Origin: a virus
Strand: one strand, 5' to 3'
IMG/VR virus record: IMGVR_UViG_3300018018_000024
Span: 1-29,663 of that record
DNA length: 29,663 bases
Part shown: positions 4,506 through 14,442 of the stretch, piece after piece
Numbering within the stretch: position 1 is the first letter of the stretch
How the letters are laid out: each line of letters starts with the position of its first letter
The notes under the pieces: model-generated
What the model was told of the DNA's origin: nothing
Database searches by the model: none
Seen by the model: the letters and a program-made list of their open reading frames with translations, nothing else
Made by a program: the position numbers and the translations under genes

Positions 4506-5090
4506 ATGCCCGACCAGCCCCCCGCCCCTCCGCCTAGCGGAGCCATTGTCTCTGCAACTACGCCCGAATCCGCCCTCCTTCAACCCCGCAAGGTCAACCG
4601 TCTCTCCGCCCCGCGCCACGAGGATTCTTTCGTTCCTTGCCTTAAAATCAAGCGCATCCGAGGTAAAGAACTGGCACCGGAGCCGGTCATGGTGCCGATG
4701 GACATTCTCGCCAACCAAAACCGCGAGATCATCGTGGCAGAATTGGCGCGGCAATTTTTAACGGGCGTATTGGATGACTGGCAGGATAAAGGCACTAAAC
4801 TCACCCCACAAGAATTAAAGCAGACCATGGAGGCTATTAAGATCGCTAATGAGAACTGCCGCTTCGCCCACGAAGGTATCGCCCTCCCGCCCACCCCGGC
4901 CAGTGGAGGCGAGGGTAAGGGCGGTGTGTTGGCCAAGGCGATGGAGGGGTTGGGCAAAGGGTTGGCGGCGGGGAAGACGCCCACGGAGGAAGAGCTGATG
5001 AAAAAGTTCAAGGAGTTGGGGCGGAAGCTGAATGAGAAAGAGGTGAAGGAAGGGGAGGCGGTTGAGGTAAAAGCCGAGGAGAAAAAGTGA
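4506..5090 (+). CDS. Possible terminase small subunit
   Basis: A 194-residue protein directly upstream of the terminase large subunit and overlapping its GTG start by 4 bp, the usual place for the small subunit that recognises the packaging site. The N-terminus is Pro/Ala-rich (MPDQPPAPPPSGAI). The middle has a helical segment, ILANQNREIIVAELARQFL, then LTPQELKQTMEAIKIANENC. The C-terminus is Lys/Glu-rich. A clear helix-turn-helix is not visible, so the call rests mostly on position. The start is the ATG at 4506, just after the promoter. Confidence 0.5.
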   Translation: MPDQPPAPPPSGAIVSATTPESALLQPRKVNRLSAPRHEDSFVPCLKIKRIRGKELAPEPVMVPMDILANQNREIIVAELARQFLTGVLDDWQDKGTKLTPQELKQTMEAIKIANENCRFAHEGIALPPTPASGGEGKGGVLAKAMEGLGKGLAAGKTPTEEELMKKFKELGRKLNEKEVKEGEAVEVKAEEKK

Positions 5091-8000
5091 CTCTCGCGCA
5101 GTTAAAGTTTTTACACTCTCTCCTCGACGGCCAAGATCACGAGCGGTGGAAGCAGGCCGCCAACCTCATCTTGGCAGAAAGGGGGATGGGCGAGGTGAGG
5201 GATAGCTTTGACCTCGCCGACAAGGTAATCCGCCAGTTCTTACAGGACTTGTTGGACGCAGAGGATTACGAGGGGGCGGCGGCGCTTTTGTGGCATGAGA
5301 AGATGTTCAGCCTTGGCCCTAAATTTGTGCAGGATGTAATGCGGGTCATGCACGACCATCACCTCATTTTATTGCAAGGGGCCAGCTCGACGAGCAAAAC
5401 TTTTACAAGTGCCGTCTATATGTTCTTGGATTGGCTACGCGACCCCGCCCTCACCTCCACTAAAATTCTCTCCCGCGATGAAGGGCACCTACGCGCCAAT
5501 GCTTTTGGAGCCATCCGTACCATGTTCTACAACATGGCCATCCCGTGGGCAGACATGGATGACGTGGTGGACCGCGATAGCGACCTTTACTTGGGGTTGA
5601 GGTCGGCGGGGAAGGAGTTCGGTTTTCAAGGCATTTCCTTCAAACAATCCTATGAAGCAACGGGTGCCTTGCAGGGCTATCATCCCCGCCCCTACCGCAA
5701 GTTCGATCACCCCAAGTTTGGGCGACTTTCCAGAATAAGAATTTTGGGCGATGAGTGTTTTCCGGGCGACCAACGGGTGTTAATGGAGGATGGAAGACAA
5801 CTCGCTATATCGGATATTGTGAACCGCCGCATTACTGATAGAGTTCTCTCATTCAATACAGCCACGGGCAAGATAGAAAAACGAGTAATTTGCGGGTGGC
5901 ATAAAATATCCTCACGAGGCAGGAAGATTGTGGAAATTTGCGGAGCGCGGATGACCGCCAACCACCCCGTTTATACGAAAGAACTCGGCTATATCTGCGC
6001 AGATGAGGCGATGAAGAAACGTCTTACAGCCATTACAATTTATGATAAGAGCCATACGGGATGCGGAACAACTCACCAAAGAACAACGGTCGCTAGTGAT
6101 AGGAGGACTGCTCGGAGACGCAAGCATAGGAATGAAGTCGGGCAAAAAATGCAATGCTTGCGTATGCTTTACTCAGGGGGTGGCCCAACTCGATTACCTC
6201 AAGTGGAAGCAACAGATAATGGATTCATTTGCCCCATATCAAATAAGGGGTCCGCAATACACGCAATTCGGAGGGATCGTGTACCGCCTTCGTACCCAAT
6301 GCCACCCGAGGTTCACGGAGATATTACACGTCATATATCCCAACGGAAAGGATGGTGGAAAAAGAATGACACCACAGATTTTCGAATGGCTCGACCCAAT
6401 GGCGATAGCTATCTGGTTCATGGACGACGGCAACATGTACAGGGCGAAAGGATGCAAAACAATCATTGCCAATCTGGCTTCTTACTTCATGCAGGAATTG
6501 GATGTGGACATGACCGTAGATTTTCTCAAGGCCAGAGGGTTAGAGTGCAGGAAAAAACCCGACAAGGGGAAAAATACAATCGTCTTCACCGCCGAAGGCT
6601 CCAGAAATCTAGCGGAGATGGTACGGCCATTCATTCATCCAGCCCTTTCCTACAAACTCACGGGCGAAAAGTGTCCGCCAAGGCCGCAGATAATTCCAAA
6701 TCTCAATGCACCAATCATGGAGGAGTGTGTCATGTGCGGAAAAATTTTCAGGAAGTTTGGGATGGCAACCACTTGCGGCCCAGAGTGCAGCCGCGCCAAA
6801 TTTCAAATTCTAGGCAGTCGTTCTTACAAGATAACGAGGCAGTTTACTGTATCGACGTTGCCGGAAACCACAACTTCTTTATTGAGGGAACCCTAGTTCA
6901 TAACTGTGCGGATTGGCCAGAAGGACCGTTCAAGGGGCTCGCCTCCCCAATCTCCTCCATCTCCGACGAGGGCCACGTTAAGATCGTCCTTACCTACAAC
7001 CCGGTCGGCGTGGACCGCCATGTGGTGCAGATGGCCGAGCCGGAACAAGGCTGGCTTTTGGAGGAGTGTGAGACGCTTTACGAGTGGGTCAGCAAAGAGG
7101 GTTGGCACGTACTGCGGCTGGATGCGAAACTAAGCGAGAATGTCGTCCAGCGCAAGATGATCTACCCCGGCATCCAGAACTTCGAGGGCTACATGCAGAA
7201 ATTGCGGGGCGAGGGGGACACGAGCAGCGCCTTCTATTGCTTCGGTCGGGGCTGGCCGCCCCTCCAAACCCAAGTCCACACCGTCTTCCCGCCCTCGTGG
7301 CCCACCACCCAGCGGGGCGAGGCGCTCTTTGATGAACTCATTTGCGTGTGGGGCTCGGTGGACTGCGCCTATCAGGGAATTGACAAGGTGGTGATGACGG
7401 TGGGGCGGTTTGGCTTTGCGAGCGGGTGGACCAAGGCGAACGGGGAGGTGGTGAAGTTCACCGATCCCACCAACCCCAAAAACTTCAAGTCCCGCCCCGT
7501 CTTGCAGGCCGACCAGCAGATCATGCTGGAGAAGAGCGACAACACCGTGACTCTAGCCAATGAGATCATCGGCAAGTGCAAGATGATGGGCATCGACCCG
7601 CAGTGGTTTGTGATCGATGGCAGTGCGGCGGGACAGGGCACGGCCTCCCACCTCACCACCTACTGGGGCAACGTGCTCGTACTCTACTGGGGCAAGGGTT
7701 CAACCAACTTCAAAGTGCTGGCCGAGGACAAGCAGCTTGCCAACGAGCGGTATCAGGGGCTCCCCTCCGAACTCTGGTTTGCCGCGAAGGAGTGGATGAA
7801 CCCGGAAGTGTGCGCTTTTCTCATCAACCCAATTATTTCTCCCAATCCCCTCAACACGGAACTATCTACGCGGAGAGCACATCCCGTTAAAGGCAAGATG
7901 TGCGTCGAAGCGAAAGAAATTTATAAAAGTCGAAATGCGGGCAAGTCTCCAGACTGTTTTGTTGCCGGGACGTTGGTATCTACACCCTACGGCGACACAC

Positions 8001-9112
8001 CCATAGAACAACTTTCCGTGGGAGATAAGATTATCACGCCATTTGGACCAACGCACATTATTGCGAAACACATTGATGAAGTGGATTGCATTACCACGGC
8101 CACCATGTCTAACGGCAGCACCCTTTCCGGCAAGGGAAAGCATCATGTTTTTGTATGGGGGAAGGGGTGGATAAAATTATCTGATTTAGAGCTTGACATG
8201 ATAATTGAGTCGGTACATCATGCGTGGATATGGAATATCCTAAGTCGGTTGTTTACAAAGGCGTCAACTATTTCCTTCAAAGCACTGGTAGATACTATCA
8301 AGATGGACACCGCGATGCGCCGGAGAGACTTTTACACCGAGTCATCTGGATTGAGCACAATGGGCCTATTCCGGGCGGCCTGCACGTCCATCACAAGAAT
8401 GGCGATTGGACAGATAACCGAATCGAGAATATGGAACTTCTGTCAGCATCCGCCCATTCGCGGTTGCATTATCCCGGCATCATATCAATGCCGGGAGTTA
8501 GAGAAGCCGTCGAAGCCGGACGGCAAAAAGCCATCAAACTTGCACCCCTATGGCACCGATCTATCGAAGGACTGGCGTGGCACAAAGCCAATGGAATACA
8601 GGGATGGCTCAAGCGAAAGTTCGTTGAAAAAATCTGCGTCATCTGCGGCAAACGGTTCTCCACCAAATTTGTGCACATGCACGACTGTTGTTCCAAAAAA
8701 TGCGCTATTATCAAAAACAATAAAAAGGCTTATTGCCTTCCTGTGCACTGCGAAATATGCGGTGCGCTCTTTATGGCTAATAAGTTTAGGCCGGGGAGGT
8801 ATTGCAGTCGAAAGTGTTGTTATGCGACACGTAAAGAATCCCGTGCCAGTCTACAACCTCACCCTAGCCGAACATAACGTGTATTATGCTAACGGCGTTT
8901 TGGTTGAGAATTGCGCAGATTCCCTCCTCATGGGAGTGACGCTCATTCGCCAGCGCGCTTCGGTCTTGCCCGGCATGGCTACCATGCAGGACAACCGCCC
9001 CAAGAAAGAGGAGGAGGGGGGCATAATAATTGTAGACTCCACTACCCCGCAACGGAAGATATTGGACATGGGGTGGGATGATAAAAACGCGGGGGAGGGG
9101 CTTAGGCTATGA
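5087..9112 (+). CDS. terL: Terminase large subunit with two inteins
   Basis: A 1341-codon gene, GTG start. After removal of two inteins (383 and 319 residues) the mature product would be about 639 residues, normal for a packaging motor. The ATPase part has a deviant Walker A, GASSTSKT (residues 98-105), and Walker B ILGDE ending at Asp222-Glu223, exactly where intein 1 begins. The nuclease part has SVDCAYQG (Asp759), VIDGSAAG (Asp844) and SPD-CADSL (Asp956, with Asp1278 after the intein), exactly where intein 2 sits. Activity therefore requires both splicing events. The gene overlaps its neighbours by 4 bp on both sides. In the two intein interiors the frame stays open although it reads as the shadow of endonuclease genes. 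Confidence 0.93.
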   Translation: MTLAQLKFLHSLLDGQDHERWKQAANLILAERGMGEVRDSFDLADKVIRQFLQDLLDAEDYEGAAALLWHEKMFSLGPKFVQDVMRVMHDHHLILLQGASSTSKTFTSAVYMFLDWLRDPALTSTKILSRDEGHLRANAFGAIRTMFYNMAIPWADMDDVVDRDSDLYLGLRSAGKEFGFQGISFKQSYEATGALQGYHPRPYRKFDHPKFGRLSRIRILGDECFPGDQRVLMEDGRQLAISDIVNRRITDRVLSFNTATGKIEKRVICGWHKISSRGRKIVEICGARMTANHPVYTKELGYICADEAMKKRLTAITIYDKSHTGCGTTHQRTTVASDRRTARRRKHRNEVGQKMQCLRMLYSGGGPTRLPQVEATDNGFICPISNKGSAIHAIRRDRVPPSYPMPPEVHGDITRHISQRKGWWKKNDTTDFRMARPNGDSYLVHGRRQHVQGERMQNNHCQSGFLLHAGIGCGHDRRFSQGQRVRVQEKTRQGEKYNRLHRRRLQKSSGDGTAIHSSSPFLQTHGRKVSAKAADNSKSQCTNHGGVCHVRKNFQEVWDGNHLRPRVQPRQISNSRQSFLQDNEAVYCIDVAGNHNFFIEGTLVHNCADWPEGPFKGLASPISSISDEGHVKIVLTYNPVGVDRHVVQMAEPEQGWLLEECETLYEWVSKEGWHVLRLDAKLSENVVQRKMIYPGIQNFEGYMQKLRGEGDTSSAFYCFGRGWPPLQTQVHTVFPPSWPTTQRGEALFDELICVWGSVDCAYQGIDKVVMTVGRFGFASGWTKANGEVVKFTDPTNPKNFKSRPVLQADQQIMLEKSDNTVTLANEIIGKCKMMGIDPQWFVIDGSAAGQGTASHLTTYWGNVLVLYWGKGSTNFKVLAEDKQLANERYQGLPSELWFAAKEWMNPEVCAFLINPIISPNPLNTELSTRRAHPVKGKMCVEAKEIYKSRNAGKSPDCFVAGTLVSTPYGDTPIEQLSVGDKIITPFGPTHIIAKHIDEVDCITTATMSNGSTLSGKGKHHVFVWGKGWIKLSDLELDMIIESVHHAWIWNILSRLFTKASTISFKALVDTIKMDTAMRRRDFYTESSGLSTMGLFRAACTSITRMAIGQITESRIWNFCQHPPIRGCIIPASYQCRELEKPSKPDGKKPSNLHPYGTDLSKDWRGTKPMEYRDGSSESSLKKSASSAANGSPPNLCTCTTVVPKNALLSKTIKRLIAFLCTAKYAVRSLWLISLGRGGIAVESVVMRHVKNPVPVYNLTLAEHNVYYANGVLVENCADSLLMGVTLIRQRASVLPGMATMQDNRPKKEEEGGIIIVDSTTPQRKILDMGWDDKNAGEGLRL
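5756..6904 (+). mobile_element. Intein 1 of terminase, in Walker B site, with out-of-frame endonuclease
   Basis: A 383-residue intein, from Cys224 (CFPGDQRVLMEDG, block A) to VHN (ending at 6904), followed by the +1 extein Cys (TGT 6905-6907). Block B is seen as ARMTANHPVYT. Blocks F and G appear as VYCIDVAGNHNFFIEGT and LVHN. It splits ILGDE from CADWPEG at the terminase Walker B. Hint residues cover about the first 95 and last 35 residues. The roughly 250 in-frame residues between them (from about 6040 to 6800) have the odd Arg/His/Gln-rich composition of a frameshifted shadow, and a LAGLIDADG gene occupies this DNA in the +1 frame. Class 1-type splicing (Cys1, His-Asn, Cys+1) looks intact. 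Confidence 0.9.
6042..6896 (+). CDS. LAGLIDADG homing endonuclease, +1 frame inside intein 1
   Basis: A 284-residue frame shifted +1 relative to the terminase gene. It matches the LAGLIDADG DNA endonuclease family: LTKEQRSLVIGGLLGDASIG holds the first motif (residues about 18-30), the helix QLDYLKWKQQIMDSF follows, and AIAIWFMDDGNMY holds the second. A Cys-rich zinc-finger-like segment (CVMCGKIF then CGPECSR) is near the end; the last roughly 27 residues are the shadow of the intein C-terminal part. The enzyme would cut the intein-less terminase allele and spread the intein. ATG 6042 has no Shine-Dalgarno sequence. Expression by its own initiation, by frameshifting from the Hint frame (the +1 frame is open from 6015), or both, is undecided. 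Confidence 0.88.
   Translation: MIRAIRDAEQLTKEQRSLVIGGLLGDASIGMKSGKKCNACVCFTQGVAQLDYLKWKQQIMDSFAPYQIRGPQYTQFGGIVYRLRTQCHPRFTEILHVIYPNGKDGGKRMTPQIFEWLDPMAIAIWFMDDGNMYRAKGCKTIIANLASYFMQELDVDMTVDFLKARGLECRKKPDKGKNTIVFTAEGSRNLAEMVRPFIHPALSYKLTGEKCPPRPQIIPNLNAPIMEECVMCGKIFRKFGMATTCGPECSRAKFQILGSRSYKITRQFTVSTLPETTTSLLREP
8193..8221 (+). promoter_or_regulatory. Promoter inside intein 2, for the nested HNH gene
   Basis: TTGACA (8193-8198), a 17-nt spacer and CATCAT (8216-8221). The CATCAT element is identical to those at 10581 and 10986. The ATG of the HNH gene is 8 nt after the -10, the same distance as for the portal gene at 15016, so transcription would begin at or within a base or two of the start codon. 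Confidence 0.5.
8230..8877 (+). CDS. HNH homing endonuclease, +2 frame inside intein 2
   Basis: A 215-residue frame, +2 relative to terminase, starting MEYPKSVVYKG (a GTG two codons upstream is an alternative). It has an HNH_3-type core: LLHRVIWIEHNGPIPGG, then LHVHHKNGDWTDNRIENMEL and SASAHSRLH. Two zinc-finger-like Cys motifs follow (CVICGKRF with CCSKKC, and CEICGALF with CSRKCC). It would nick or cut the uninvaded terminase allele. The promoter at 8193-8221 and the leaderless spacing suggest expression independent of the terminase mRNA. The stop (8875-8877) lies within the intein C-terminal coding part. Confidence 0.87.
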   Translation: MEYPKSVVYKGVNYFLQSTGRYYQDGHRDAPERLLHRVIWIEHNGPIPGGLHVHHKNGDWTDNRIENMELLSASAHSRLHYPGIISMPGVREAVEAGRQKAIKLAPLWHRSIEGLAWHKANGIQGWLKRKFVEKICVICGKRFSTKFVHMHDCCSKKCAIIKNNKKAYCLPVHCEICGALFMANKFRPGRYCSRKCCYATRKESRASLQPHPSRT

Positions 9113-9915
9113 ACGAAGAAAATTTAGAGGTGCAACATGGCATGGCTATTCAGCAAGGCGTTAATGAACCGCTACGAGAACTCGCACTCTTTGCCGGTGC
9201 GGGCGGGGGAATCCTTGGGGGCAAACTGCTCGGATGGCGAACCGTCTGTGCCGTCGAAATCGACGCCTATGCCGCAAGCGTGCTTGTGGCACGGCAAAAC
9301 GACGGCTGCTTGGAAGCGTTTCCCGTCTGGGATGACGTGCGAACCTTTGACGGACGACCTTGGCGGAGCCGTGTTGACGTGGTTTCTGGCGGGTTTCCCT
9401 GTCAGGATATTAGTTCAGCAGGAAAGGGGATCGGAATTAATGGTGAACGAAGTGGACTATGGAAAGAATTTGTCCGAATCATTGGCGAAGTACGACCCCG
9501 TTTCTCATTCGTGGAAAACTCACCAATTCTCACTAGCAGGGGACTTGGAGTTGTTCTCGGAGACTTATTCGAATTGGGGTATGATGCGCAATGGGCAATT
9601 ATTGGAGGTAAAGACGCCAAAATGGATATTGACGGAAAGAGAATATGGATTATTGCCGCGTCCATGTGCAGGGGATTATCGGCGTGGAACAGTTCAAAAT
9701 TATCAAAAACTAAAGGCTTATCTACTGAGGCATCAACTATCCCTGCAAGATGTTCTCAATATGATCGGATTAGAAAATGGAGAACATGGACAAACAGACC
9801 CTATCTACACCGAAATAGCGATGGATTGGCCAATAGGGTGGACCGCCTTAAGGCCATTGGAAACGGCCAAGTTCCAGCAGTGGCTAGACTTGCATGGGAG
9901 ACATTAGCCCCATGA
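9109..9915 (+). CDS. DNA (cytosine-5)-methyltransferase
   Basis: A 268-residue C5-methyltransferase. Motif I is ELALFAGAGGGILGG (SAM binding). Motif IV is GGFPCQDIS with catalytic Cys98. Motif VI appears as FVENSP, where the usual ENV is ENS. Motif VIII-like KRIWIIAA follows, and motif X is LKAIGNGQVPAVA near the C-terminus. The variable region between about residues 185 and 240 is short and low in recognisable features, so the target-recognition domain is small. The gene overlaps the terminase stop by 4 bp. It probably methylates phage DNA against host restriction. A second long frame runs through the same DNA (9137-9907). Confidence 0.9.
   Translation: MNEENLEVQHGMAIQQGVNEPLRELALFAGAGGGILGGKLLGWRTVCAVEIDAYAASVLVARQNDGCLEAFPVWDDVRTFDGRPWRSRVDVVSGGFPCQDISSAGKGIGINGERSGLWKEFVRIIGEVRPRFSFVENSPILTSRGLGVVLGDLFELGYDAQWAIIGGKDAKMDIDGKRIWIIAASMCRGLSAWNSSKLSKTKGLSTEASTIPARCSQYDRIRKWRTWTNRPYLHRNSDGLANRVDRLKAIGNGQVPAVARLAWETLAP
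9137..9907 (+). CDS. Overlapping-frame protein inside the methyltransferase gene
   Basis: A 256-codon frame, +1 relative to the methyltransferase, open along almost its whole length. The first 100 residues look like the methyltransferase shadow. From the internal ATG at 9440 it reads like a real protein: SESLAKYDPVSHSWKTHQ, FSETYSNWGMMRNG, EREYGLLPRPCAGDY, LSLQDVL and DWPIGWTALRPLETAKFQQW. I recall this pattern (KYDP..S.WKT, WG.MRNG, GLLPTP, WPIGWT.L) from many phage and prophage proteins annotated beside or inside cytosine methyltransferase genes. No function is known to me. The real start may be 9440 rather than 9137. Confidence 0.5.
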   Translation: MAWLFSKALMNRYENSHSLPVRAGESLGANCSDGEPSVPSKSTPMPQACLWHGKTTAAWKRFPSGMTCEPLTDDLGGAVLTWFLAGFPVRILVQQERGSELMVNEVDYGKNLSESLAKYDPVSHSWKTHQFSLAGDLELFSETYSNWGMMRNGQLLEVKTPKWILTEREYGLLPRPCAGDYRRGTVQNYQKLKAYLLRHQLSLQDVLNMIGLENGEHGQTDPIYTEIAMDWPIGWTALRPLETAKFQQWLDLHGRH

Positions 9916-11805: not shown

Positions 11806-14442
11806 ATGCCCCGCCGCCGCAAAGACCCCCCGCCCATTTTTCCCCACACCGCCCTCCGCGCTCTCTCTGGGCGGGAGCCACCCCAAAGCGCGGAGATGGA
11901 GCAGAACCTCCTATGCTGCTGCATCTTGGGCGGGATTGAGACCGTCTCCCACTGCGTTTCGGCGGGGGTGAAGCGGGGGGCTTTCTACCTCCCGGCCAAC
12001 GGCACCATCTACCAGCACCTCGTCTCCCTTTGCGCCAAGGGCACCGCCCCCACCCTTGATGCTCTTATCCAAGAGCTAAGGGAAGTAGGGGAGTTGGAGG
12101 CGGTTGGGGATGTGTCCTACCTCATGGCCCTCACCTCCAAAATTCCCACCTCCATCCAGTTTTCCTACTATCTGGAAAAGGTGTTGGAGCTTTACAAGTT
12201 GCGGGAACTCATTAAGATAAGCATCGGGTTACACGAAAAGTGCTTTGAATATGAGGGCACCATCGCAGAGGCGGTCGCTCCTTTCGTGGAAGAAATCGTG
12301 GCGATCCAAGCGGGTACAGGTGCTCCCTCCCACCGCCAGATGCCCGCCATTGTGGGCGAGGCGCGGGCGTGGGCGGAGGCGAAGATGCGGGGGAAAGAAA
12401 GCCCTTTCCGCCAAATCCTCACCGGCCTCTCCTCCTTTGACCGCTACGCCACTCCGATTGAGCCGCATGAGTACGTGGTGGTGGGGGCGCGGACGCGGCA
12501 TGGCAAGACTTCCTTCCTTTGCCAGATCGCCAACCACAACCTCTATAAAGGGGTACGCACCGCCTTCTTCAACCTTGAAACGAGCGACCGTTCCATCGTG
12601 GAACGCATCGCCGCGCAGAGGTCGGGGGCGAATGTCAAGCTCTTTGACCAAGAGCCGACCGACAAGCAGCAACGCTACTTTGAAGCATTAGGAGAACTTA
12701 ACACCCAGCCTCTCCTCATCTTCGACCACGACCTCACCTTGGAGCAAATCGAAGCCCGCTGCCGCCTGCTGGCCAACTCCTTCAAGCCGGAGTTGGTTGT
12801 TATCGACTACTTGAACTTATTAGGCGGAGACTCCCCCGACTCCTACGAGCGCATCACCCAAGTTTCCAAGGCCATGCTTCCCCTGCGCAAGAGGCTGGGG
12901 TGCGCGTTGCTGGTGGGGGCGCAACTCAACCGCTCCAGCGAGAAGGAGAATCGCCAGCCCCAGACCACGGACTTCAGGGATTGTGTCGCTGGGAGCCAAA
13001 GGGTACTAGACCCAAAGACTGGCAAACGAGTTAGAATAGAAGATGTTGTAGCCGGTCAAAACGTACTGGCTATTACCAACGACATGAAATTGGTAAATGA
13101 TACTGCTAGTAGCGCATGGGCGGCGGGCAAGAAAGATGTGTTTAGGGTGGATACCACATGTGGCAACTCCTTGGTTTGTACAAACGGACACCGGCTGTAT
13201 ACGCCTTATGGGTTCAAACGACTTAAACACTTATCAGTTGGTGATACAATAGCAGTTGCACGCATTATAGACGAGCCAGAAATATTTGCACCTATATCTC
13301 CTCGGGCTGCCCTGTTACTTGGATGGATGATGGGTGATGGATGCTTCTATCAGGCTCAAGAGTTGACTGTAAATTCAGTCTCCGATGCTGAATTGGCGTG
13401 TAATCTTGCCCGAGAGGAATTTGGCATTAAGCCAACCTACCGACCAGAGTCAAAATCAGATCGGGCATGGAGGGTGACATTTACTGCGGGGTGGCCGCCG
13501 CGTCCTAAAAAGAATCCAATGACGCGGTGGATTCGGTCACTTGGATTATACGGGAAAACTAAAGGCAATAAATTCACGCCCGATGTTATTTTTGAGGCGA
13601 GCAATCCGTGTGTTGCCGCATATCTTCGCGGATTATTTCATGCTGATGGTTGTTGTACTATAAAACCGGGAGGAACAAGCGTTCTCATTAAACTTAATTC
13701 AATCTGTCGGCATCTATGCGAACAGGCCCGTGACCTTTTATTGCGATTTGGTATTCAATCAATTGTCTCGGAAGAGCGAAATCCTAAACAGCGATTTGGG
13801 TGTTATCATGCTTATTGGAAATACAGCTATGTTCTTCGTATTACCAGAAGGACAGATGTGATAAAGTTTGTTGAGTCTATTGGATTTTTGGGCGAGAAAC
13901 ATAAGGCTGCATTGATAAAAATCACGCCCGCGAAGCATTTTAACGGCAGTTTCGACCGTCTTCCGTTAAAGGTTAATAGCATAGCCCAAGAGGCAAAGCA
14001 TAAGAAAAAATTGCGTGGATTTAGGTGGGATGACCAAGGCAAAAAGATGGCTAGAGAAAACGCCGCTATGCTGGCGGGACGTTTGGATGCTTTAGAACTT
14101 GCGGTATGGGCGCATAGTGACATTAGGTGGACGGAGATTAAATCCATTAATCCGGCAGGGAGAGCTGAGTGTTTCGATTTAACCGTTCCCATTAATCATT
14201 CCTTTGTTGTAGAGAATTTTGTCACACATAATTCGGGGAGCGTGGAAGAAGACGCCCACCGCATCGTTGCCCTCTACCGCCCCAATAAGGACTTCGCGGG
14301 GTTGGAGCAGGGACCGGAGCGGCTGGTGTACGATTATGAAATTCTCCAGCTTAAATTGCGGGACGGCCCCACCACGGGAACCCACGCCAAGTTCATGGCC
14401 ACTTGCACGAGGTTTATGGAAGAGGTCAAAAAAAGTGCTTGA
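11806..14442 (+). CDS. dnaB: Replicative DNA helicase (DnaB family) with intein
   Basis: An 878-residue precursor; without the 417-residue intein the helicase is 461 residues, typical of DnaB. The N-terminal domain shows PPQSAEMEQNLLCCCILGG. The RecA-like domain has Walker A GARTRHGKT (residues 227-235, Lys234), Walker B LVVIDYLNLL (Asp334), and GAQLNRSSE followed by QTTDFRD before the intein and SGSVEEDAHRIVALYRP after it, the conserved DnaB segment that often hosts inteins. It is the ring helicase that unwinds DNA at the phage fork. ATG 11806 lies one base after the preceding stop. The next promoter's TTGACA overlaps its stop codon. Confidence 0.95.
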   Translation: MPRRRKDPPPIFPHTALRALSGREPPQSAEMEQNLLCCCILGGIETVSHCVSAGVKRGAFYLPANGTIYQHLVSLCAKGTAPTLDALIQELREVGELEAVGDVSYLMALTSKIPTSIQFSYYLEKVLELYKLRELIKISIGLHEKCFEYEGTIAEAVAPFVEEIVAIQAGTGAPSHRQMPAIVGEARAWAEAKMRGKESPFRQILTGLSSFDRYATPIEPHEYVVVGARTRHGKTSFLCQIANHNLYKGVRTAFFNLETSDRSIVERIAAQRSGANVKLFDQEPTDKQQRYFEALGELNTQPLLIFDHDLTLEQIEARCRLLANSFKPELVVIDYLNLLGGDSPDSYERITQVSKAMLPLRKRLGCALLVGAQLNRSSEKENRQPQTTDFRDCVAGSQRVLDPKTGKRVRIEDVVAGQNVLAITNDMKLVNDTASSAWAAGKKDVFRVDTTCGNSLVCTNGHRLYTPYGFKRLKHLSVGDTIAVARIIDEPEIFAPISPRAALLLGWMMGDGCFYQAQELTVNSVSDAELACNLAREEFGIKPTYRPESKSDRAWRVTFTAGWPPRPKKNPMTRWIRSLGLYGKTKGNKFTPDVIFEASNPCVAAYLRGLFHADGCCTIKPGGTSVLIKLNSICRHLCEQARDLLLRFGIQSIVSEERNPKQRFGCYHAYWKYSYVLRITRRTDVIKFVESIGFLGEKHKAALIKITPAKHFNGSFDRLPLKVNSIAQEAKHKKKLRGFRWDDQGKKMARENAAMLAGRLDALELAVWAHSDIRWTEIKSINPAGRAECFDLTVPINHSFVVENFVTHNSGSVEEDAHRIVALYRPNKDFAGLEQGPERLVYDYEILQLKLRDGPTTGTHAKFMATCTRFMEEVKKSA
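12982..14232 (+). mobile_element. Intein 3, in DnaB, with in-frame LAGLIDADG endonuclease
   Basis: A 417-residue intein from Cys393 (CVAGSQRVLDPKTGKRV, block A) to FVTHN, then Ser+1. Block B is SLVCTNGHRLYTPYG. The endonuclease is in the same frame and has both motifs: LLLGWMMGDGCF (about residues 503-514) and AAYLRGLFHADGCC (about 604-617). Blocks F and G read CFDLTVPINHSFVVEN and FVTHN. This is the ordinary large-intein architecture and contrasts with the two terminase inteins. The interior is richer in A+T than the helicase around it. Confidence 0.93.

Follow-up and report, generated by a model that had tools for sequence, protein, structure and literature searches.

Homing endonuclease genes nested in a second reading frame of phage terminase inteins

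Introduction

Inteins are usually described as single-frame proteins in which the endonuclease is a domain. In classical LAGLIDADG inteins, such as PI-SceI and TliVMA, the endonuclease lies between the two Hint halves, in frame and as part of the excised protein, within an ATP-binding host gene. Separate encoding of the endonuclease between intein halves is known from fractured genes with split inteins, reportedly described by Dassa et al. in 2009, in which the host is broken in two and splicing occurs in trans. Free-standing and intron-encoded LAGLIDADG_2 enzymes (the I-SceI family) do not lie within an intein-coding frame.

Two further reports concern HNH endonucleases that are out of frame with the gene that contains them. 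An out-of-frame HNH endonuclease, called intein-encoded, has been noted in the large terminase gene of brucellaphages (PMC4422536, 2015). The account is a single remark on one near-identical phage group and HNH alone, and in the passages concerned the Hint domains are not analysed, stop avoidance is not assessed, and neither a survey of the family nor a LAGLIDADG counterpart is given (PMC4422536). The ShiLan domain is an out-of-frame HNH insertion without an intein, its host being a DNA methylase (PMC11855218, 2025). It shares with the loci reported here the insertion into a phage gene, an open host frame, a complete HNH in another frame and a scattered distribution; intein splicing motifs were, however, undetected in it and splicing was not proposed (PMC11855218). 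No LAGLIDADG version or family-wide account was found in the full-text literature searched, the preprint of Gosselin et al. (2025) on non-canonical actinobacteriophage inteins lying outside this scope. The first-pass annotation of the DNA analysed here knew of no description of a nested, dual-frame intein of this kind; the brucellaphage remark (PMC4422536, 2015) and the ShiLan insertion (PMC11855218, 2025) call for a correction of this for HNH, while for the LAGLIDADG type and the breadth of the family the papers searched yielded no description.

Here we describe a viral stretch of 29,663 nucleotides (IMG/VR record IMGVR_UViG_3300018018_000024, hereafter the window) whose terminase gene contains two inteins, each overlapped by an endonuclease gene in another frame. 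The HNH endonuclease of intein 2 resembles the brucellaphage case in lying inside a terminase gene and out of frame. Unlike the ShiLan insertion, the terminase inserts have Hint sequences that flank the nested gene; the presence of Hint N- and C-terminal parts in the host frame rules out an insertion of that type. The endonuclease of intein 1 is the same in family and fold as the free-standing enzymes and is closest by fold to I-SceI, which is intron-encoded, but in contrast to classical inteins it would be a separate product of another frame. Indeed, the offsets from the Hint frame (1 in intein 1 and 2 in intein 2) rule out a classical bifunctional intein, and a split-intein fractured gene is ruled out by a host ORF that is continuous over 1,341 residues and not divided into two. 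No group I or group II intron RNA was detected in the window (Rfam, gathering thresholds; the sole match was a tRNA), and a group I intron with an endonuclease was rejected on this result.

Results

The features of the locus are collected in Table 1. Once both inteins are removed, the predicted spliced terminase has 639 residues. The edges of intein 1 read E/CFPGDQ...GTLVHN/C and those of intein 2 D/CFVAGT...GVLVEN/C (the slash marks the border), the insertion sites being GDE/C, in Walker B, and SPD/C. An intein-free allele exists in L003 (IMG/VR 3300044798_000162), the terminase of which is 77% identical and contains neither intein; because it reads straight across both sites (...RILGDE/CSDWPEG... 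and ...GKSPD/EAESLL..., respectively), both borders are judged to be right. Intein 1 matches Pfam Intein_splicing over residues 9-383 (E=5e-6) and NCBIfam intein_Nterm and intein_Cterm, and it bears the signature of a class 1 Hint-type intein, Cys1, TANH (block B TxxH) and VHN/C, which is conserved among 12 aligned sequences. These properties point to the terminase inserts being Hint-type class 1 inteins, and their intact catalytic residues predict self-splicing.

Table 1. Positions of the terminase inteins, the nested endonuclease genes and the in-frame control in the window
Feature	Position	Strand	Details
Terminase large subunit precursor ORF	5087-9112	+	GTG start; 1341 aa, unbroken; PHROG terminase matches
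Intein 1	5756-6904	+	383 aa, terminase frame; after Walker B 'GDE'; +1 residue Cys
Hint N-terminal part, intein 1	5756-6046	+	Terminase frame; Cys1, TANH block B
Nested LAGLIDADG_2 (I-SceI-type) homing endonuclease	6042-6896	+	+1 frame; ATG start; C-terminal zinc finger
Dual-coding filler, intein 1	6047-6811	+	Open in terminase frame; predicted disordered
Hint C-terminal part, intein 1	6812-6904	+	Terminase frame; CIDVAGNHNFF...LVHN; conserved columns
Intein 2	7955-8911	+	319 aa, terminase frame; after 'KSPD'; +1 residue Cys; Hint_2 E=7e-10
Nested HNH_3 homing endonuclease	8224-8877	+	Offset 2 frame; zinc fingers; Pfam E=6e-18
DnaB helicase intein, classical in-frame LAGLIDADG	12982-14232	+	417 aa; in-genome control

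The first-pass annotation had placed the Hint parts of intein 1 in the terminase frame and a LAGLIDADG protein in the +1 frame, and both assignments were borne out, the former by the intein profiles and the latter by the match of the protein to Pfam LAGLIDADG_2 (E=2.6e-25). Its place in the I-SceI group rests on the family profile, two motifs with catalytic acidic residues and the fold: an AF2 model of this frame has a mean pLDDT of 85.9, and Foldseek aligns it with I-SceI (TM 0.78) and I-WcaI (TM 0.77). The aspartates of the LAGLIDADG motifs and the zinc cysteines are invariant across 11 aligned sequences. The frame encodes a complete endonuclease, for which site-specific cleavage of the empty allele is predicted. 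When the host frame of intein 1 was modelled with AF2, residues 1-97 (pLDDT ~93) and 353-383 (~92) were ordered and matched NpuDnaE, Mtu RecA and other mini-intein structures in Foldseek, whereas residues 98-352 scored ~33; the filler is therefore predicted to be disordered. The ordered parts of the two frames are complementary, their borders meeting at ~6047 and 6812-6822, and confidence is mostly low for the last 24 endonuclease residues, where the gene runs over the Hint C-terminal motif. In intein 2 the nested gene is identified by the HNH_3 profile and by histidines and cysteines that are invariant in seven aligned relatives; homology makes the ATG at 8230 a more likely start than the GTG at 8224.

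The openness of the terminase frame was assessed against a null in which the endonuclease's own codons were permuted synonymously, keeping the protein and the codon counts. Over the 284 codons of intein 1 the terminase frame contains no stop, against a mean of 8.2 expected and a minimum of one in 2,000 permutations; 8.8 stops are expected when the gene's own codon usage is resampled and 9.7 with that of the window. The open frame claimed in the first-pass annotation is thus confirmed, although the ~13 stops that it expected was a crude figure. In the third frame of intein 1 there are 19 stops against 20.3 expected, and the terminase frame of intein 2 has none against 3.5 (P 0.006). The DnaB intein provides a control in the same genome. 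Its edges read D/CVAGSQ...VTHN/S, the phage thus having three inteins of two architectures, and its alternative frames contain 13 and 26 stops, matching the permutation expectation. At offset 1 a host-frame stop arises when T at endonuclease codon position 3 precedes AA, AG or GA; this occurs in 26 of 73 cases in the in-frame DnaB intein and in 0 of 70 in the nested LAGLIDADG gene.

Relatives were sought by scanning IMG/VR and genome contigs with alignments, after which a script tested each host frame for openness and for Hint domains. The alignments were needed, as a scan with the single endonuclease sequence returned one distant free-standing relative only. Protein searches of a phage collection with the terminase and the inteins gave either no match or Hint-N matches alone, and the relatives were therefore drawn mainly from IMG/VR. 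The LAGLIDADG survey yielded 17 distinct nested loci (the window included), as against 43 inteins of the classical in-frame type and 120 loci that are free-standing or of other kinds. Sixteen of the nested genes are at offset 1 and one, in Xanthomonas phage FoX3, is at offset 2; in 14 of the 16 and in FoX3 a Hint N- and a Hint C-terminal part could both be recognised in the host frame. Among the HNH relatives 72 of 84 are nested, 69 at offset 2 and three at offset 1, and 66 of the 72 have a host frame that bears the N- as well as the C-terminal Hint part. The three at offset 1 (L143, L148 and L154) suggest an independent nesting event. Hosts of the LAGLIDADG type are terminases, UvrD helicases and DEAD/Ski2-like helicases, the site being mostly at or beside Walker B. 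Nesting is found in isolated phages, namely FoX3 (LAGLIDADG), Tetrasphaera TJE1 (HNH) and Acinetobacter Highwayman (HNH), and likewise in the deposited Rhodobacteraceae phage genome MD07; in all four the nested endonuclease is unannotated. A nested LAGLIDADG intein also interrupts the UvrD-like helicase of L184 (3188-4408), a contig attributed to a Nostoc MAG, and the arrangement recurs in the terminase of L185, which belongs to a Bathyarchaeota MAG. Candidates rejected as nested comprised L002 and the crAss-like matches, which are free-standing, and the RNA ligase of KLEP7 together with 42 other loci, which are classical in-frame inteins. The host proteins of L058, L092, L166, L168 and L311 have an apparent second intein-like segment beside the nested one.

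The avoidance of stop-forming codon pairs extends across these loci. Since the nested class was defined by having no stop in a host frame, the zero counts within it are partly so by construction, and are to be read in this light: T before AA, AG or GA occurs 0 times in 799 in 11 nested LAGLIDADG loci and 676 times in 2,355 elsewhere, while 69 nested HNH loci lack both an A directly after ATG (0/114) and an A or G directly after NTA (0/228), compared with 10/35 and 70/116, respectively, in the 15 HNH loci whose corresponding frame is interrupted by stops. Independent evidence for nesting comes from the Hint domains at the ends of the same open frame. The view of the first-pass annotation that selection keeps the host frame open is upheld by these counts, with the DnaB intein as negative control. 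Homologues with stops in the terminase frame, which it had named as contrary evidence, did not come to light; the relatives have an open host frame with the endonuclease out of frame. Both genes are intact, and selection acting through codon choice has kept stops out of the host frame.

As a metagenomic contig, the window is open to the argument that sequencing or assembly indels have pushed a normal in-frame intein endonuclease out of frame. This would, however, require two compensating indels in each of two inteins of one gene, and a host frame that by chance holds none of the ~8 stops expected. It should also be emphasized that the same offset recurs in 15 other LAGLIDADG and ~68 other HNH loci, isolated phages included, that codon pairs are avoided throughout the nested loci, and that the DnaB intein on the same contig reads in frame. 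An artefact was thus rejected through the homologues and the in-frame control of the same genome, and we give it practically no credence.

A second possibility is that the inserts are relics, with a defunct endonuclease frame and open frames that have simply lingered. Homing endonucleases commonly decay once fixed, which speaks for relics. The nested frame is nevertheless full length, with the invariant motif aspartates and zinc cysteines noted above, and the endonuclease keeps 42% protein identity despite long divergence. Nucleotide identity between the window and its relative L023 is 0.61 and 0.62 at the first two positions of the endonuclease codons and drops to 0.32 at the third. Decay is therefore highly improbable. 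These identities, together with the host-frame null below, indicate that the endonuclease protein is under purifying selection, while the host frame need only be open.

Conversely, the filler in the terminase frame might be the functional protein domain and the nested frame its by-product. Some filler residues are indeed common to relatives, and a few pairs of loci lie above the null, such as L030/L056 (z 4.7). The common residues are, however, forced by the endonuclease motif, as with VHGR under WFMDDG, and close pairs retain synonymous sites through descent. Host-frame identity between the window and L023 is 21%, exactly as under the synonymous-permutation null (21%, z=0.2), and over 55 pairs the mean z is 0.9; the filler amino acids are thus little or no more conserved than the endonuclease forces them to be. 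Endonuclease codon position 3, which is host position 1, is near saturation, and the filler is predicted to be disordered. The agreement of host-frame identity with this null led us to reject a functional filler domain, to which scarcely any likelihood can be granted. The nested arrangement itself is old and conserved.

How the nested gene is translated was considered in 12 nested loci, in all of which an in-frame stop lies 1-14 codons upstream of a usable start codon; in the offset-1 family the start codon is at or near one aligned position. The close upstream stop and the aligned start fit independent internal initiation. No strong Shine-Dalgarno sequence precedes the ATG at 6042, and most of the relatives likewise have a weak one or none, which suggests that the endonuclease is translated at a low level; a promoter scan of intein 1 returned nothing above chance. 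The weakness of the ribosome-binding site, along with the short frame overlap ahead of the conserved endonuclease core, would also suit programmed +1 ribosomal frameshifting from the terminase frame, which would make a fusion of Hint-N and the endonuclease and leave that fraction of the precursor unspliced. Against this, the upstream stop closes the endonuclease frame, with one codon between stop and start in L024, L025 and L027, no shared slippery sequence was seen, and the nested genes cluster with free-standing enzymes, which are read from starts of their own. Frameshifting is thus unlikely, and of the two routes allowed by the first-pass annotation, a start of its own or frameshifting, the sequence supports the former for the nested LAGLIDADG gene.

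Directly after the terminase the window has a further dual-coding pair. A C5-methylase gene (9109-9915; Pfam E=1.7e-25) is overlapped over nearly its whole length by a second ORF in another frame (9137-9907; PHROGs 1008, 35493 and 26627), with no stop in either frame against 7.5 or 9.4 expected (0/1000 permutations). In L003, where the pair is absent, the next gene (11878-12573) follows the terminase directly.

Discussion

The reading that we favour, with a probability of roughly 85%, is that of a composite, dual-coding mobile element that arose when a free-standing homing endonuclease gene invaded a mini-intein. In the terminase frame each insert would specify a Hint mini-intein, with a long, unconserved and probably disordered stretch at the canonical insertion point for an endonuclease; read in another frame, the same DNA would specify an entire homing endonuclease, start and stop included (LAGLIDADG of the I-SceI type in intein 1 and HNH in intein 2). 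A ribosome entering from the terminase start would read through, and the precursor, to judge from its intact catalytic residues, would splice itself, while the endonuclease would be made separately by occasional internal initiation. It may then cut intein-free alleles, which do exist, at the insertion site, whereupon recombination would copy the whole element.

As to origin, the endonuclease gene is likely to have entered the mini-intein without regard to reading frame. A tree of 88 endonuclease domains, built by a quick method and with modest support, places the window within a group of seven nested genes (SH-aLRT 95) and the nested genes among free-standing ones, and sets 39 of the 43 in-frame inteins apart in a group of their own. 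This grouping suggests an invasion of mini-inteins by free-standing genes and not a slip of in-frame domains into another frame.

On balance, dual-coding inteins seem to constitute a major and largely unannotated class of phage mobile element, comprising two unrelated endonuclease families, LAGLIDADG and HNH, each at more than one offset, in mini-inteins of packaging and replication ATPases. The endonuclease would thus be made independently of splicing, and codon-level selection would have kept the host frame open through long periods of evolution. In these inteins the splicing and endonuclease functions would be separate proteins on one stretch of DNA. They represent a natural case of overlapping genes in which one frame need only stay open, so that the cost and origin of gene overlap become measurable. 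They also show that common annotation overlooks homing endonucleases, as in FoX3, TJE1, Highwayman and MD07, and they offer a testable route by which free-standing endonuclease genes may gain a protein-splicing home. With respect to intein engineering, they suggest that natural inteins tolerate ~250 residues of unconserved and probably disordered filler.
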